Of a DNA stretch of 64,000 nucleotides, positions 17,448-50,143 are shown piece after piece (within the stretch, counting starts at the first letter, position 1; each line of letters starts with the position of its first letter). The stretch spans positions 2,976,001 through 3,040,000 of the forward strand of contig NZ_CP087710.1 of the NCBI RefSeq assembly GCF_020991065.1. The letters run 5' to 3'. The position numbers were made by a program, and so were the translations under genes. The notes below the pieces were generated by a model. The model did no database searches. It saw only the letters and a list, made by a program, of their open reading frames with translations, and was not told the origin of the DNA. The stretch comes from Nocardioides okcheonensis (GTDB taxonomy: Bacteria; Actinomycetota; Actinomycetes; Propionibacteriales; Nocardioidaceae).

Positions 17448-17533
17448 CGGAGGTAGGGGGATTCGAACCCCCGAGGGCTATTAACCCAACCCGCTTTCCA
17501 AGCGAGCGCCATAGGCCACTAGGCGATACCTCC
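17448..17533 (-). tRNA. tRNA-Ser (anticodon GGA)
   Basis: On the minus strand the sequence opens GGAGGTATCGCCTAGTGGCC and closes with the complementary TACCTCC plus discriminator G. The anticodon loop reads CTTGGAAAG, giving GGA. A long variable arm (GGGTTGGGTTAATAGCCCTC) identifies the class II serine type, and the T arm reads GGTTCGAATCC. CCA is not encoded. Length is 86 nt. Confidence 0.95.
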
Positions 17534-17621: not shown

Positions 17622-17627
17622 CCCGGC

Positions 17628-17715
17628 AACCCCCCACGCGGCGTCACCTCGCCCAATCCCCCAGGGCCGGAAGGCAGCAAGGGTCAGTGAGCTCTGACGG
17701 GTGCGTGGGGGGCCT
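17628..17715 (+). ncRNA. ffs: Signal recognition particle RNA, small bacterial type (4.5S)
   Basis: The universally conserved domain IV sequence (CAGGGCCGGAAGGCAGCAAG, 17662-17681) forms the Ffh-binding loop. The ends CCCCCCACGC (17630-17639) and GCGTGGGGGG (17703-17712) close the hairpin. The RNA pairs with Ffh to target nascent membrane proteins. It is followed by CCTTGTCTT and lies directly upstream of dnaX, an order common in actinobacteria. Confidence 0.93.
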
Positions 17716-17744
17716 TGTCTTATCCGCCGGTTAGGCTCCACGAC

Positions 17745-26063: not shown

Positions 26064-26137
26064 TCGGGCTGACAGGATTTGAACCTGCGGCCTCCTCGTC
26101 CCGAACGAGGCGCGCTACCAAGCTGCGCCACAGCCCG
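26064..26137 (-). tRNA. tRNA-Pro (anticodon CGG)
   Basis: On the minus strand the acceptor CGGGCTG pairs with CAGCCCG followed by discriminator A. The anticodon stem-loop CCTCG-TTCGGGA-CGAGG gives CGG. The T arm reads GGTTCAAATCC. CCA is not encoded. Length is 74 nt. Confidence 0.94.
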
Positions 26138-30838: not shown

Positions 30839-31126
30839 ATGTGGGTCGAGGACTGGGCATCGCGTGCCGCATGCAAGGGTGACACGCCCGACGCTCTCTT
30901 CGTGCGAGGCGCGGAGCAGAACAAGGCCAAGCAGGTCTGCGCCGGGTGCCCCGTGCGCACCGAGTGCCTCGCCGAGGCGCTGGACAACCAGATCGAGTGG
31001 GGTGTCTGGGGCGGCATGACCGAGCGGGAGCGCCGCGCGCTGCTCCGCCGCCGCCCGGGCTCGTCGTGGCGCAGCATCCTCGAGACCGCGCGTACCAAGG
31101 TCGAGAGCCCCTCCGTCAACGCCTGA
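30839..31126 (+). CDS. wblA: WhiB-family iron-sulfur regulator, WblA/WhiB4-like
   Basis: A 95-residue protein. Four Cys (12, 34, 37, 43) would hold the 4Fe-4S cluster, in the pattern AACKG...QVCAGCPVRTEC. The GVWGG turn (55-59) and basic ERERRALLRRR follow. The extended end SSWRSILETAR matches WblA of Streptomyces and WhiB4 of mycobacteria, a redox-responsive regulator of development and antioxidant genes. The surrounding synteny supports that subgroup. The start ATG lies after GGGGAACTG. The 193 bp upstream, shared with ponA2, holds a TTGACC sequence at 30734, but a matching -10 is unclear. Confidence 0.9.
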   Translation: MWVEDWASRAACKGDTPDALFVRGAEQNKAKQVCAGCPVRTECLAEALDNQIEWGVWGGMTERERRALLRRRPGSSWRSILETARTKVESPSVNA

Positions 31127-43847: not shown

Positions 43848-45362
<1,515 letters not shown>

Positions 45363-45367
45363 GCGTG

Positions 45368-45494
45368 GCTCCGCAAGGTTCGCTGTTCGCTGTCAGGGCA
45401 GGCGAGGGCGACGGGCCGGGCGCGGACGGAGGTCCGGCGCGGCTCGTCAGCGGGTGCGGAGCTTGAGCGTCGCGGTGGGCACGGCGCCACGGTA
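45368..45494 (-). promoter_or_regulatory. Predicted translational attenuator of the ABC-F gene
   Basis: The ABC-F Shine-Dalgarno sequence TGCGGAGC (45375-45368) is perfectly complementary to GCTCCGCA (45462-45455) inside an upstream leader ORF. A -10-like TACCGT (45494-45489) lies six bases before the leader GTG. A GC-rich spacer with a small hairpin (CGGAC/GTCCG) separates the two. A ribosome stalled in the leader would cover the anti-Shine-Dalgarno bases and open the ABC-F start. Confidence 0.55.
45447..45482 (-). CDS. Leader peptide MPTATLKLRTR upstream of ABC-F gene
   Basis: An 11-codon ORF from GTG 45482 to TGA 45449-45447. Residues 7-9 are Lys-Leu-Arg and 9-11 are Arg-Thr-Arg, both fitting the +X(+) motif at which macrolide-bound ribosomes arrest in Erm leader peptides. 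With codon 8 in the P site the ribosome would cover the anti-Shine-Dalgarno segment. No Shine-Dalgarno sequence precedes it, and a -10 hexamer just upstream suggests a leaderless start. Confidence 0.5.
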   Translation of the reverse strand: MPTATLKLRTR

Positions 45495-45526
45495 GACGAG
45501 GGCGGCGTCGCGGCTCGACGGGTTTT

Positions 45527-46153
45527 TCAGGCCTCGCCCGGCGGCAGCGGTCCCACGAGGTAGGCGTCGACCTCGACGCCGAGCCCCCACATCGACCCGC
45601 CGCCGAGGGTGAAGCGGGCGGACGGCCAGCCCAGGCGCGCGATCTCCGCCTCCCACGTCTTGCGGGCCCGCGCGGCCACGGCCTCGGCGGAGCCCTCCCG
45701 GTCGAGGGCGGCCCGGATCCCGGCTGCGTGCTTCACGACGTGCTCGCGCAGGTGCTCCGGGACGGCGCCGTCGACGTGGGTGACCAGCGCGAGGAGGCAG
45801 GCCGAGCCCTCGGGGGCCAGCGCCGACATCTTGAGCCCGTTGGCCACCAGCTCGGCCAGGTGCCCGGTCCGCGACGTGGCGCCCAGCAGGTCGAAGGCGT
45901 ACATCGCCTTCGCCTCGACCTGCAGGACCGGCGTCTCACCGGCCAGGACGGCGATGTCGGCCCGGCGCCACCCGCGGGCGACGACGTGGGCCTCGCCGAG
46001 CTCCTGCTGGAGCCGCCACGCGAGCCGGTCGCGGACGGGCTGGCCGGCCGTGCCGGTGAGCGCGAGGTAGGCCAGCTCGTCCGCGTCGAAGTCCGCGGAG
46101 AGGGAGGCGAGCGTCGTGGCGAGGGCGCCGACGACCGAGGGGCTGGCTGCCAT
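45527..46153 (-). CDS. Hypothetical protein with possible PD-(D/E)XK motif
   Basis: A 208-residue soluble protein from the ATG at 46153 (a GTG at 46168 is also open). RADIAVLAGETPVLQVEAKAM (about residues 64-84) has the D...ExK spacing of PD-(D/E)XK nuclease folds, and a glycine-rich end (FTLGGGSMWGLGVEVDAYLVG) follows. The overall protein is small and has no helicase or methylase partner. Function is unknown. It lies upstream of the ABC-F leader on the same strand, separated by a likely new promoter. Confidence 0.5.
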   Translation of the reverse strand: MAASPSVVGALATTLASLSADFDADELAYLALTGTAGQPVRDRLAWRLQQELGEAHVVARGWRRADIAVLAGETPVLQVEAKAMYAFDLLGATSRTGHLAELVANGLKMSALAPEGSACLLALVTHVDGAVPEHLREHVVKHAAGIRAALDREGSAEAVAARARKTWEAEIARLGWPSARFTLGGGSMWGLGVEVDAYLVGPLPPGEA

Positions 46154-46251
46154 GGGCCCATCGAACACCGCCGCGAGGTCGGTCGGGAAGACCGTCGGAC
46201 CCGCGACGCCACGCGGACGGGTCGTGGGGAGCGGGCGTCCCGTGTGTTATG

Positions 46252-46268
46252 TGTAGTAACCCACTACA
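46252..46268 (+). promoter_or_regulatory. Inverted repeat upstream of ssuD
   Basis: TGTAGT-AACCC-ACTACA is a 6-bp inverted repeat with a 5-bp centre, ending eight bases before the ATG at 46276. Its position suits a repressor site or the promoter itself. Confidence 0.4.
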
Positions 46269-46275
46269 GATAAGC

Positions 46276-47355
46276 ATGAAGCGCCCGCGTCGCATGGAAT
46301 TCCTCTGGTACATCCCCAACCAGGTCGCCCCGGGCCACCGGTCGGACACGACCACCGAGGGGCACAACAGCCTCGAGCGGCTGACCGGCCTCGCCCGGCT
46401 CGTCGAGGACCACGGCTGGGGCGGCGCCCTCATCGGCACCGGCTGGAAGCGGCCCGACACCTTCACGGTCGCGACCGCCCTCACCGCCGCCACCACGACC
46501 TTCAACCCGCTGATCGCCATCCGTCCGGGCTACTGGACGCCGGCGCACTTCGCCTCCTCCGCGGCCACGCTCGACCAGCTCAGCGGCGGGCGGGTGAAGG
46601 TCAACGTGGTGAGCGGCCCGGACCACCAGCCGCAGTACGGCGACGACGAGGGCGACCAGGCGCAGCGCTACGCCCGGACCCGCGAGTTCATGCGGCTGGT
46701 CCGGCGCTACTGGACCGAGGACGACATCACCTTCGAGGGCGAGCACTACCACGCGCACGGCGCGACGCTGGAGCACAAGCCCGTCGCCCGGGAGGGCCGC
46801 CCGCACCCCAAGCTCTACTTCGGCGGCGCCTCGGAGGCCGCGCAGCGCACCGCCGCCGCCGAGGCCGACGTCCAGCTCTTCTGGGGCGAGCCGCTCGACG
46901 GCGTCGCCGCCCGCATCGACCACCTCCGCACCCTCAGCGAGGAGGTCGGCCGCGACCTCCCGCCGCTCGAGTTCGGCCTGCGGATCACCACCCTGGTGCG
47001 CGACACGACCGAGGAGGCCTGGGTCGACGCCGAGGCCAAGGTCGCCGCGATGGCCGCCGGGCGCGACGAGTGGTTCGTCGACCCCGACCGCCGGGTCGCC
47101 GTCGGCCAGCAGCGGCTGCTCGACCTCGCGGAGCAGGGCGACGTCCTCGACGACTGCCTCTACACCGCTCCCGGCCGGGTCGGTGGCGGCGGCGCCGGCA
47201 CGACCTGGCTGGTCGGCTCGCCCGACGACGTGGCCAAGGCGCTGCGCCGCTACGCCGACCTCGGCGTCACCCACTTCGTGCTCAGCGACACGCCGTACGA
47301 GCGCGAGATCGTCCGCGTCGGCGACTCGCTGCTCCCGCTGCTCCGCTCCGCCTGA
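46276..47355 (+). CDS. ssuD: FMNH2-dependent alkanesulfonate monooxygenase-like (LLM family)
   Basis: A 359-residue bacterial luciferase-like enzyme. MEFLWYIPNQVAPGHRSD opens like SsuD (an ATG at 46294 would start exactly there). LIAIRPGYWTPAHFASSAATLDQLSGGRVKVNVVSG and GASEAAQRTAAAEADVQLFWGEP are family blocks. It would cleave sulfonates to sulfite and aldehyde using reduced flavin from a separate reductase, not seen nearby. Neighbours encode a sulfonate-type ABC importer, which supports the assignment. Confidence 0.85.
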   Translation: MKRPRRMEFLWYIPNQVAPGHRSDTTTEGHNSLERLTGLARLVEDHGWGGALIGTGWKRPDTFTVATALTAATTTFNPLIAIRPGYWTPAHFASSAATLDQLSGGRVKVNVVSGPDHQPQYGDDEGDQAQRYARTREFMRLVRRYWTEDDITFEGEHYHAHGATLEHKPVAREGRPHPKLYFGGASEAAQRTAAAEADVQLFWGEPLDGVAARIDHLRTLSEEVGRDLPPLEFGLRITTLVRDTTEEAWVDAEAKVAAMAAGRDEWFVDPDRRVAVGQQRLLDLAEQGDVLDDCLYTAPGRVGGGGAGTTWLVGSPDDVAKALRRYADLGVTHFVLSDTPYEREIVRVGDSLLPLLRSA

Positions 47356-47410
47356 GGGGTGGCAGGTCCCGGTGGCAGGAAGTCCCTGCCGTCCAAAAGG
47401 CGAGTAAGTC

Positions 47411-47428
47411 AACTAACTCAGTTTAGTT
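47411..47428 (+). promoter_or_regulatory. AT-rich inverted repeat upstream of ssuA
   Basis: AACTAA-CTCAGT-TTAGTT lies 32 bp upstream of ssuA in an AT-rich patch unusual for this genome. It is a candidate operator for sulfur-responsive control. No regulator gene is nearby. Confidence 0.4.
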
Positions 47429-47460
47429 TGGATGTCCCACCCCATGAAGGAGCTTCCCTG

Positions 47461-48540
47461 ATGTCACGACGAGGGCCCCGCCCCCTGGCGTTCCGCAGCC
47501 CCCTGACCCGCACCGTCCTGCTGGCCACCGTCGGCCTCGCCGCGCTCTCCGGTTGCGGCGGCCAGGACGCCGGCCCGCGCCTCGAGCTGACCGCGGCCCT
47601 GCCCGACGCCCCGGCCGACGGCACCGTCCTCCGGGTCGGCGACCCGGCCACCCAGGTCGCGCTGGAGACCTCCGGCCTGATCGACGACCTCGACGTCGAG
47701 GTCGAGTGGGCCAACATCACCGGCGGCCCCAAGACGCTCGAGGCCTTCCGCGCCGACGCCATCGACATCGGCTCGGTCGCCGACATCCCGCCGCTCTTCG
47801 CACACTGGACCGGCACCGACGTCCGCGTCGTCGCCGCCCGCGAGACCGTCGACCCGATGGAGCACCCGACCTACGAGCTCGGTGTCGCGCCCGGCGTCGA
47901 CGTCTCCTCGATCGAGGACCTGAAGGGCAAGAAGATCGCCTACAGCCCCGGCCAGGCCCAGGGCGCGCTCGTGCTCAACGTGCTGCGCGAGGCCGGCCTC
48001 ACCCAGGACGACGTCGAGCTCGTCGAGATGCAGAGCGTCGACGACGCGTTCTCCGTGGCGCTCGCCGGCAAGCAGGTCGACGTCGCCCCGCTCGGCCAGT
48101 CGCTGGTGAAGACCTACCTCGCGAAGTACGAGCGCGACGGCGCCACCACGATCGCGCCGGGCGTGCGCGACGACGCCTGGACGCTCTACACCCCGACCGA
48201 GGTCCTCGAGGACGCCGACAAGGCGGCCGCGATCAAGGACTACGTCGCCGTCTGGGCCGAGGCCCAGGAGTGGATCTCCAGCCACCCCGACGAGTTCGCC
48301 CAGGCCTACTACGTCGACCACGAGGGCCTCTCGGAGGAGGACGCGGACTACGTCGTCGAGGCGCTCGGCGAGTTCACCGTCCCGACGAGCTGGGACGACT
48401 TCATCGCGCGCCACCAGGAGACCGCCGACACCCTCGCCGAGGAGCAGGGCCACGACCCGGTCGACGTGGAGACGCTCTACGACCGGCGCTACGAGAAGGC
48501 CATCGCCGCCGCGCTCGACGGGAAGGAGGCGGGCTCGTGA
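47461..48540 (+). CDS. ssuA: Sulfonate ABC transporter substrate-binding lipoprotein
   Basis: A 359-residue secreted lipoprotein. The signal sequence ends in the lipobox LSGC with Cys32. The body matches SsuA/TauA/NrtA binding proteins (TLEAFRADAIDIGSVADIPPLFAHW, then DLKGKKIAYSPGQAQGALVLNVLREAGL). GAAGGAGC precedes the ATG. It would capture an organosulfonate and deliver it to SsuC/SsuB. The exact ligand is not predictable. Confidence 0.88.
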   Translation: MSRRGPRPLAFRSPLTRTVLLATVGLAALSGCGGQDAGPRLELTAALPDAPADGTVLRVGDPATQVALETSGLIDDLDVEVEWANITGGPKTLEAFRADAIDIGSVADIPPLFAHWTGTDVRVVAARETVDPMEHPTYELGVAPGVDVSSIEDLKGKKIAYSPGQAQGALVLNVLREAGLTQDDVELVEMQSVDDAFSVALAGKQVDVAPLGQSLVKTYLAKYERDGATTIAPGVRDDAWTLYTPTEVLEDADKAAAIKDYVAVWAEAQEWISSHPDEFAQAYYVDHEGLSEEDADYVVEALGEFTVPTSWDDFIARHQETADTLAEEQGHDPVDVETLYDRRYEKAIAAALDGKEAGS

Positions 48541-49370
48541 CCACGCTGACCGCCTCCCGCCCCGTCGTCGCCGCCGATGACGTACGTCCCGTGCGGCGCC
48601 GGCTCGGCCCCGGCGACCCGATCCGGTTCAGCGGCCTGATCGGCATCGCCGTCCTGCTCGCCGCCTGGGTCGTCGGGTCGGCCACCGGGCTGCTCGACGA
48701 GCGCAACCTCAGCGCGCCGTGGACCGTCGTCGCGACGGCCGAGACCCTCATCGAGAACGGCCGGCTTCAGGAGAGCCTGGTCACCTCCGGCATCCGCGCC
48801 GCGCTGGGCCTCGGCCTCGGCGTCGCGGTCGGCACCGTCCTGGCGCTCATCTCGGGCCTCTCGCGGATCGGCGAGTCGCTCATCGACGGGCCGATCCAGG
48901 TCAAGCGCTCGATCCCCACGCTGGCGCTGATCCCGCTGCTGATCCTGTGGCTCGGCATCGGCGAGCCGATGAAGGTCATCACCATCGCGCTGGCCGTCTT
49001 CGTGCCGATCTACATCCACACCCACAACGGCCTGCGCACCATCGAGGGGCGCTACGCCGAGCTGGCCGAGACCCTCGACGTCAGCCGCGCCGAGTTCATC
49101 CGCCACGTGGTGCTGCCCGGCGCCATGCCCGGCTTCCTGCTCGGCCTGCGCTTCGCGGTGACCTCGTCGCTGCTCGCGCTCGTCGTCGTGGAGGTCATCA
49201 ACGCCACGAGCGGGATCGGCCACATGATCACGCTCGCGTCCAACTACGGGCAGACCGACATCATCGTCGTCGGCCTAGTCGTCTACGCACTGCTCGGCGT
49301 CACCGCCGACGCGGTCGTCCGTCTCATCGAGAGGAAGGCACTGTCATGGCGTCGCACACTGGCGAGCTGA
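48537..49370 (+). CDS. ssuC: Sulfonate ABC transporter permease
   Basis: A protein of 277 residues. The GTG at 48537 overlaps the ssuA stop. About six membrane helices and the EAA-type cytoplasmic loop (ELAETLDVSRAEFIRHVVLPGAMPGFLLGLR, about 175-206) identify a binding-protein-dependent permease of the SsuC/TauC family. It is translationally coupled to ssuA, and ssuB overlaps its end by 25 bp. Confidence 0.9.
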   Translation: MTTLTASRPVVAADDVRPVRRRLGPGDPIRFSGLIGIAVLLAAWVVGSATGLLDERNLSAPWTVVATAETLIENGRLQESLVTSGIRAALGLGLGVAVGTVLALISGLSRIGESLIDGPIQVKRSIPTLALIPLLILWLGIGEPMKVITIALAVFVPIYIHTHNGLRTIEGRYAELAETLDVSRAEFIRHVVLPGAMPGFLLGLRFAVTSSLLALVVVEVINATSGIGHMITLASNYGQTDIIVVGLVVYALLGVTADAVVRLIERKALSWRRTLAS

Positions 49371-50143
49371 CCCCGCAGACCGGGCCCGCGGTCCGGGTCG
49401 AGGGCCTGCACCGCAGCTTCAACGAGGCGGGTGGCGTGCTCAACGGCCTCGACCTCGACATCGCCCCCGGCGAGTTCGTCGCGCTCCTCGGGCGCAGCGG
49501 CTCCGGCAAGTCCACCCTGCTGCGGGCGCTGGCCGGCCTCGACCGCGGGGTCGCCGGCCACGGCCGGGTCCTCGTCCCGGAGAAGGTGTCGGTCGTCTTC
49601 CAGGACTCGCGCCTCCTGCCGTGGAAGCGGGTCCTCGACAACGTCACCCTCGGCCTGCGCTCCGCCGACGCCGCCGAGCGCGGCTCGCAGGCACTCGCCG
49701 AGGTGGGCCTGGCCGGGCGGGAGAAGGCCTGGCCGCACGAGCTCTCGGGCGGTGAGCAGCAGCGCGCGTCGCTGGCCCGCTCGCTGGTCCGCGACCCCGA
49801 GCTGCTGCTCGCCGACGAGCCGTTCGGGGCGCTCGACGCCCTGACCCGGATCCGGATGCACACCCTGCTGCGCAACCTCTGCGAGGTCCACCAGCCCGCC
49901 GTGCTGCTGGTCACCCACGACGTCGACGAGGCGATCGTGCTGGCCGACCGGGTCATCGTGCTCGACGGCGGCGTGGTGCGCCACGACGCACGGATCGACC
50001 TCGGCGCCCGCCGCTCGCAGGCCGACCCGGCGTTCGCCCGGCTGCGCGCGCAGCTGCTGACCGAGCTCGGCGTCGAGGACGACCACGACGCGGCACCCGG
50101 CCGGCACTCCGACGTACGCCTCGGCGAGAGGGCGGCCTCGTGA
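49346..50143 (+). CDS. ssuB: Sulfonate ABC transporter ATP-binding protein
   Basis: A 265-residue ATPase. Walker A is GRSGSGKST (49-57), the Q-loop VFQDSRLLPW, signature LSGGEQQRASLARSLV, Walker B LLLADEPFGALD and H-loop LVTHDVDEA. It drives the SsuC permease. The start lies inside the ssuC gene, and its stop overlaps the next monooxygenase start, so the operon continues. Confidence 0.9.
   Translation: MASHTGELTPQTGPAVRVEGLHRSFNEAGGVLNGLDLDIAPGEFVALLGRSGSGKSTLLRALAGLDRGVAGHGRVLVPEKVSVVFQDSRLLPWKRVLDNVTLGLRSADAAERGSQALAEVGLAGREKAWPHELSGGEQQRASLARSLVRDPELLLADEPFGALDALTRIRMHTLLRNLCEVHQPAVLLVTHDVDEAIVLADRVIVLDGGVVRHDARIDLGARRSQADPAFARLRAQLLTELGVEDDHDAAPGRHSDVRLGERAAS

Follow-up and report, generated by a model that had tools for sequence, protein, structure and literature searches.

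A conserved candidate leader peptide upstream of an ABC-F gene in Nocardioides okcheonensis and its relatives

On the minus strand of the 64,000-nucleotide stretch of Nocardioides okcheonensis DNA analysed here (the window), an open reading frame (ORF) of only 11 codons precedes a gene for an ABC-F ATPase, and the question that this locus raises is whether so short an ORF controls the gene behind it. A sequence-only reading had proposed that it does so as a drug-sensing leader peptide, and its statements about coordinates and bases proved right: the ORF (GTG CCC ACC GCG ACG CTC AAG CTC CGC ACC CGC TGA, 45482-45447) ends exactly 84 nt before the ABC-F GTG at 45362, and its codons around Leu8-Arg9 contain GCTCCGCA, the exact 8-nt complement of TGCGGAGC around the ABC-F Shine-Dalgarno (SD) sequence (Table 1). 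We found that the leader is conserved and carries an arrest-type motif, that its codons hide the SD in the window, and that a computed ribosome footprint relieves this masking. We therefore consider it likely that the ORF encodes a drug-sensing leader peptide and that macrolide- or ketolide-type stalling on it controls ABC-F translation, behind a WhiB7-type promoter.

According to this proposal, transcription from the WhiB7/WblC-type promoter would start at or next to the leader GTG and, to judge from the promoter spacing, ribosomes would load directly on the 5′ end of the transcript. In the absence of drug the leader would be read through, and folding and comparison suggest that the ABC-F SD would then be hidden through pairing with codons 7-10. 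If a drug of the macrolide or ketolide type is present, a ribosome would be expected to stall at Lys7-Leu8 with Arg9 waiting; by covering the anti-SD it would open the SD and allow synthesis of the ABC-F protein, which may in turn clear or protect ribosomes. Under this stress, WhiB7 would presumably make the transcript more abundant.

Table 1. Elements of the leader region and the downstream gene, with their coordinates in the window.
Feature	Position	Strand	Remarks
A-rich element AAAAAC, WhiB7/WblC-like	45522..45527	-	one mismatch to GAAAWY; 3 bp before the -35 element
-35 element TCGAGC	45513..45518	-	consensus TKGMNN, one mismatch in four specified bases; 18 bp from the -10 element
-10 element TACCGT (TANNNT)	45489..45494	-	6 nt before the leader GTG
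Leader ORF MPTATLKLRTR	45447..45482	-	GTG start, 11 codons, TGA stop; conserved leader with RLR/KLR motif
Anti-SD arm GCTCCGCA	45455..45462	-	third base of Lys7 to first base of Thr10; partner of the SD in the MFE fold (P 0.88)
Predicted stall site	Leu8 CTC 45461-45459; Arg9 CGC 45458-45456	-	Leu8 in the P site, Arg9 in the A site, by analogy with ErmDL (PMC8298421)
GC-rich hairpin GCCGCGCCGGAC..GTCCGCGCCCGGC	45415..45443	-	from folding; in the spacer between leader and SD; corresponding hairpin in the closest homologue, L002
SD arm TGCGGAGC	45368..45375	-	includes GGAG (45372-45369); 6-nt spacer to the ABC-F start
ABC-F ATPase, 504 aa	43848..45362	-	GTG start; nearest NCBIfam models TlrC/CarA/OleB/SrmB and general ribosome-protection ABC-F

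The ABC-F gene and its promoter

The window ABC-F scores below the curated cut-offs of both of its nearest NCBIfam models (266.7 against 800 bits for TlrC/CarA/OleB/SrmB and 266.1 against 380 bits for ribo_prot_ABC_F), and is for this reason not filed as a known resistance ABC-F; four ABC-F relatives also fall below these cut-offs. The names among its best 120 matches are mostly generic (ABC-F or ATP-binding cassette), with a few macrolide transport system ATP-binding/permease proteins, and the nearest named proteins among them come from Nocardioides, for example N. nanhaiensis (66%). Actinobacterial ABC-F groups AAF1-5 have been predicted to be resistance factors (PMC6723617), and both the regulation and the kinship of the window ABC-F point that way. 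In an alignment with its relatives, the window protein and five others (P0002, P0013, P0022, P0030 and P0034) lack about 40-45 residues between the NBD2 Q-loop and signature motif that five longer relatives possess, and the NBD2 helical subdomain of these six shorter proteins looks truncated with Walker A and B kept.

The promoter ahead of the leader, which the sequence-only reading did not mention, resembles the published WblC consensus, which reads GAAAWY, 3 bp, TKGMNN, 16-19 bp, TANNNT (PMC7157823). The window promoter, AAAAAC-CCG-TCGAGC-18-TACCGT, has 2 mismatches out of 10, and that of the closest homologue, L002, has only 1, its A-rich element GAAAAC being an exact fit to GAAAWY. Across the 51 loci compared below, the mean is 2.73 mismatches out of 10 as compared to 5.56 in shuffled sequences; 22 of the 51 have at most 2 mismatches, a level reached by 0.41% of shuffles, and 29 have 3 to 6. 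Aligning 53 loci places an A-rich block at about -32 to -29 from the -10 element and a weak -35 around -24, while the TANNNT-N6/7 arrangement (53/55 loci) is itself the pattern by which leaders were searched. By its sequence, then, the promoter is of the WhiB7/WblC type, and WhiB7 binding is predicted. The window element AAAAAC overlaps the stop codon of an upstream ORF of 213 aa on the same strand (45527-46168, minus), which has no Pfam or NCBIfam match at E 0.001 and the end of which, by eye, also lies upstream in L002. There are four Whib-domain matches in the genome, one of which, L168, combines a Wbl domain with the hook RPRGRPRK. We take this hook to mark WhiB7, going beyond the AT-hook named in papers, and on this assumption a WhiB7 protein is present in the genome. 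A Whib-domain protein without RPRGRPRK is encoded inside the window (30854-31042, plus).

In Streptomyces lividans the mean distance from -10 element to transcription start site (TSS) is 6.3 nt, and 17% of transcripts are leaderless (PMC8079986). Because the spacing from the -10 element to the window GTG matches this distance, and because the 6 nt before the GTG (GGCGCC) hold no SD, the leader ORF is most simply read as leaderless, with a predicted transcript start at the GTG. Some relatives show, by eye, a GGAG two nt before the leader ATG, which is too close to the ATG to be a usual SD. In one homologous locus, L080, TATCGT-N6-ATG falls directly on the apparent ABC-F start, 72-84 nt before the aligned start and with an A-rich element upstream (by eye); the main ORF of this locus is itself apparently leaderless.

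Conservation and classes of the leader peptide

Homologous loci were defined by an E-value limit alone. Of 215 genomes from the genus, 21 (the window's own included) have a close ABC-F homologue at E <= 1e-100; with a limit of E <= 1e-95 the order gave 24 among 391 genomes and the class 25 among 394, in sets that overlap. The gene is therefore patchy, with roughly a tenth of the genus genomes having it. Together these searches led to 55 distinct loci, made up of 21 genus loci, L005, 10 further ones from the order and 23 further ones from the class; in these we looked, no more than 300 nt ahead of the aligned start, for TANNNT followed after 6 or 7 nt by an ATG or GTG that opens an ORF of 5-22 codons. 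A script found this pattern in 53 of the 55 loci, while shuffled sequences give 0.011 per locus. A 54th leader, in L053 (TAGGGT-N6-ATG, peptide MHYFYFL), was missed by the script because the contig ends early and was recognized by hand, and no leader was found in L080. Since the pattern was first noticed in the genus set and L005, the 33 loci from the order and class provide a fair test; here the script recovered 31 leaders, or 32 with L053. Conservation was a test that the leader-peptide interpretation could have failed. Instead, it is supported by a short ORF in 54 of 55 homologous loci, in the same place relative to the promoter and upstream of a resistance-type gene.

As a control, 25 other ABC-F loci were searched, of which three have the pattern, with peptides that resemble the YFL leaders described below, and four other ABC-type places in the same genome (35 matches in total) gave no leader by the same pattern. 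A scan of named genomes, for which the best 80 matches were listed, mostly distant ABC-Fs, revealed the pattern in at least 13 of the 77 scanned; among the matches listed, L081, from a Nesterenkonia MAG, has the same leader peptide as L072, and several pattern matches in non-actinobacteria look like chance. No Rfam family reached its gathering score in the leader region. One of the homologues, L032, has an internal TGA in its ABC-F frame and may therefore be a broken or misassembled copy.

For comparisons between leaders we used 51 loci, dropping the near-identical L036 and L038 and leaving L053 and L080 outside. A simple pattern divides these into 23 RLR, 25 YFL and 3 KPW leaders, where the RLR class takes in L050, L058, L059 and L072 and every leader that is neither RLR nor KPW counts as YFL. 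All but two of the 23 RLR-class leaders, L050 (MCGIASMKLWTRR) and L059 (MYRGTASAMRPWTRA), contain RLR or KLR (21/23), written with four different codons for the first residue, four for Leu and three for the last Arg. Thus, a motif known from ErmDL recurs at a conserved place in the peptide. The sequence-only reading had named two arrest motifs in the window leader, and the second of these fared less well than KLR: RTR occurs in only 4 of the 23 (L001, L002, L031 and L032). The YFL leaders are 6-8 residues long, as in MHLYFL and MQYLFFL; their penultimate residue is F or Y in 25/25, and the final one is Leu in 22/25. The KPW leaders of L033, L034 and L035 (near-copies L036 and L038) read MCCYAKKPWSSR, MTFCAKPWFVR and MSFCAKPWFVR.

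On a tree of the 51 ABC-F proteins, built by a quick method and unsure in its placement of several long-branched rows (L044-L047, L072), the YFL class forms one side of a branch with SH-aLRT 99, and the KPW class forms one side of a branch with support 71 among RLR rows. Two class changes suffice on this tree, the minimum possible for three classes, and therefore the type of sensor follows the gene tree. Short ORFs in the same promoter arrangement were also seen before other ABC-F genes (L106, L151, L116, L088, L006, L011 and L013), with the peptides MSTPRVS, MSTPRIS, MASPRIS, MGSLIFL, MHYLFFV, MAFYHYL and MASYFYL, which suggests that there are more leader families behind similar promoters.

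Masking of the ribosome-binding site and its relief

In the window the pairing between leader and SD has a probability of 0.88, as compared to a mean of 0.19 over 30 shuffles, and the region as a whole folds far more strongly than shuffled sequences (z -3.77, 0/200). The complement itself is less telling. Among 5000 dinucleotide-shuffled leaders, 1.16% have an 8-nt stretch complementary to part of the 18 nt directly preceding the start, and the same 8-nt match is present in 132 of 18276 36-nt pieces taken at every 7th position of the 64 kb on both strands. When the same peptide was recoded synonymously with local codon usage, 125 of 400 versions reached an 8-nt complement and 78 of 400 equalled the window's footprint relief. 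The 8-mer by itself is weak against chance because an anti-SD readily results when KLRT is written in GC-rich codons; taken alone, it is only moderately unlikely and not decisive. The assertion that motif and pairing coincide in a way hard to explain by chance thus goes too far where the 8-mer by itself is concerned; the comparison with other loci, 54/55 of which have the leader, carries more weight.

The effect of a stalled ribosome was modelled as the difference that a ribosome-sized mask, placed on the codon of the predicted stall, makes to the free energy of opening the SD, in 51 loci with 20 shuffles each. In the window the computed cost falls from 11.6 kcal/mol to 5.3 with the leader footprint, a relief of 6.2 kcal/mol where shuffles average 0.4 (0/20), and this relief peaks when the footprint lies over the leader. 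This agrees with the earlier suggestion that a stall at Leu8-Arg9 would unmask the SD; in computation, a stalled ribosome alters the structure that hides it. With KLR at residues 7-9, GCTCCGCA spanning these codons, relief by the footprint and a predicted stall, the window leader corresponds to an ErmDL-type +X+ leader.

Across the loci this behaviour is widespread and depends on class. At least 90% of shuffles were beaten in 34 of 51 loci, namely 13/23 RLR, 21/25 YFL and 0/3 KPW (leaving 10/23, 4/25 and 3/3 that fall short), in a comparison for which ten ABC-F starts were set by hand, eight of them among the 51, and the doubtful starts of L045, L047, L066 and L072 were kept. Mean relief was 2.64 kcal/mol for RLR, 4.71 for YFL and -0.33 for KPW, with shuffle means of 0.05, 0.19 and 0.4, respectively, and three of the RLR-class passes (L037, L039 and L058) are weak, with less than 2 kcal/mol. 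In a scan of the mask along 12 loci, the 11 RLR and YFL examples had their relief mainly over the leader and directly behind it, a few of them with smaller second peaks, and the KPW locus L033 had its largest relief downstream of the leader. The KPW SDs are strongly hidden, and a footprint on the leader fails to open them in the model (0/3). All 10 RLR-class loci that fail have spacers of 98-168 nt, longer than the 84 nt of the window; since 11 of the 13 that pass also exceed 84 nt, spacer length alone is not decisive, and an indirect switch through extra hairpins is possible in the failing loci.

Whether the pairing is kept in orthologues has a divided answer: it recurs in many loci, but it is absent in some and its register varies. 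L031, L032 and L061 build the helix from the same R-L-R codons as the window, while in many others it lies at other leader codons. The idea of a pairing conserved in register was accordingly dropped, and because the leader arm sits at different codons we regard the pairing as conserved in function, not in register. Leaders were also swapped between loci of one class, and in full folds a locus's own leader performed better, at 0.548 against 0.439 within YFL (8/20000 permutations as good) and 0.432 against 0.333 within RLR (526/20000), although these values, like the footprint statistics, ignore kinship among loci, which are not independent sequences. Swaps scored by duplex energy gave 1/5000 for all classes together, which mostly reflects the difference between classes, and were weak within class (RLR 517, YFL 71 and KPW 1658 of 5000).

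These results bear on the strongest rival explanation, in which the leader does sense a drug and the switch is mainly transcriptional, through Rho-dependent or pausing-based attenuation rather than SD masking. Attenuation of ABC-F genes is often transcriptional, as described for lmrC, vgaA, msrD, vmlR and vgaL (PMC12421871; also PMC8546547, PMC10314930), the spacer here is C-rich by eye, and the KPW loci, where the footprint brings no SD relief, would fit such a switch. An intrinsic-terminator attenuator of the msrD or lmrC type was rejected, as a U-tract hairpin between leader and gene was looked for on the minus strand and not found; indeed, between 45300 and 45620 the minus strand has no terminator-like site, and one lies on the plus strand at 45506-45520. 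Because SD opening is moreover footprint-dependent in two thirds of the loci by the 90% criterion (34/51) and a leader pairs better with its own SD than swapped leaders do, we judge a mainly transcriptional switch unlikely.

Known leader systems and meaning for the ABC-F family

The closest parallel to the window leader is ErmDL, in which RLR is critical for telithromycin-dependent arrest; with erythromycin it is not critical, a point against the proposed mechanism (PMC8298421). Both are short leaders with an Arg-Leu-Arg (+X+) motif and a resistance-type gene downstream, and the stall at the Leu codon before the second Arg is predicted here by analogy. They differ in that ErmDL controls the methyltransferase gene ermD while the target in the window is an actinobacterial ABC-F, and in that the window leader is predicted to be leaderless, with the arrest codons themselves forming the anti-SD. 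MsrDL (MYLIFM) of msrD is likewise a leader peptide that controls an ABC-F (PMC10314930). The YFL relatives resemble it in length, in their hydrophobic and aromatic make-up and in ending directly at the stop codon, whereas the window leader belongs to the RLR class and lacks the intrinsic terminator at which msrD is attenuated. The Streptomyces proteins LmrC, Are5sc and TiaA (PMC8546547, PMC12421871) are also actinobacterial ABC-Fs under uORF attenuation. However, they belong to the ARE5 subfamily, have the uORFs MLV and MVGDDDISG with premature terminators shown or predicted, and are induced by lincosamide, streptogramin A and pleuromutilin. Similarly, cplR combines an ABC-F, a uORF and a sequestered SD, and translational attenuation suffices for its repression (PMC10201436); it differs in being clostridial, in its uORF MR(I/M), and in having the SD within a terminator hairpin downstream of the uORF.

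Leaderless leader peptides are known from S. lividans, where a short ORF has its start codon as TSS; these, by contrast, answer to amino acids and precede genes for biosynthesis, transport or tRNA ligases (PMC8079986). A real leader that senses arginine or leucine supply, or general translation stress, and not a macrolide-type drug, might accordingly be imagined for the window. This seems improbable given that the leaders are short and free of runs of one amino acid, that RLR is a known ketolide/macrolide arrest motif and the YFL class resembles MYLIFM, and that the controlled gene encodes an ABC-F and not a biosynthesis enzyme.

The promoter invites another comparison, as WhiB7/WblC promoters share the AT-rich element 3 bp before the -35 and the TANNNT -10 (PMC7157823, PMC10727445), and the WhiB7-dependent MAB_2355c is likewise an ABC-F, conferring macrolide resistance (PMC8373217). 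WhiB7 control in the window is a prediction, and the word 'leader' is absent from the main text of PMC8373217. If the promoter alone mattered, the small ORF would be a by-product of a leaderless start site, as might be argued from L080, which by eye keeps such a promoter directly on its apparent ABC-F start without a leader; we find this very improbable, since the peptide motifs are conserved with varied codons, the leader classes follow the gene tree and SD opening is footprint-dependent. A P of about 0.01 for the 8-nt complement by itself, and its frequency among synonymous leaders, speak for chance association of a random small ORF with a random GC-rich complement, but in our judgement chance has a negligible share; it was dropped as a full explanation because the leader is conserved in 54/55 homologous loci against about 1% expected.

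With control by a drug-sensing leader peptide as the preferred reading, a wider picture emerges. In the literature cited here, leader-controlled ABC-F genes are known from Firmicutes and from Streptomyces ARE5 genes (PMC8546547, PMC12421871), and our searches of open-licence PubMed Central papers showed no description of the window's leader family. The combination of a leaderless leader, a WhiB7-like promoter, arrest codons serving as anti-SD and an exchange of sensor classes within one family appears to be new. We are inclined, by a small degree, to see one ABC-F family in which a WhiB7-type promoter fires onto a leaderless leader with arrest codons as anti-SD, the sensor having been exchanged between the RLR, YFL and KPW types, and thus an independent actinobacterial reinvention of two macrolide-sensor types of Firmicutes. 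The RLR type would then act as ErmDL does, and the MsrDL-like YFL type would arrest at termination.

If this is true, a sensor of the macrolide type controls, in a share of actinobacteria (25/394 class genomes), an ABC-F gene not yet recognized by curated models as a resistance gene, and control would come in two layers, WhiB7 setting the amount of transcript and the leader its translation. In this family, sensor class, SD complement and ABC-F would have evolved together, giving natural variants on which the relation of leader sequence to inducing drug could be tested directly, a follow-up asked for in PMC10201436.

Elsewhere in the window, an alkanesulfonate monooxygenase-like gene, below equivalog cut-offs, starts a stretch on the plus strand (46249-50143) that continues with ORFs resembling, from their translations alone, substrate-binding, permease and ATPase proteins, and which is perhaps a cluster for sulfonate uptake and use. 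A bacterial small SRP RNA lies at 17625-17722 (plus), and two tRNA genes lie at 17448-17533 and 26064-26137 (both minus).
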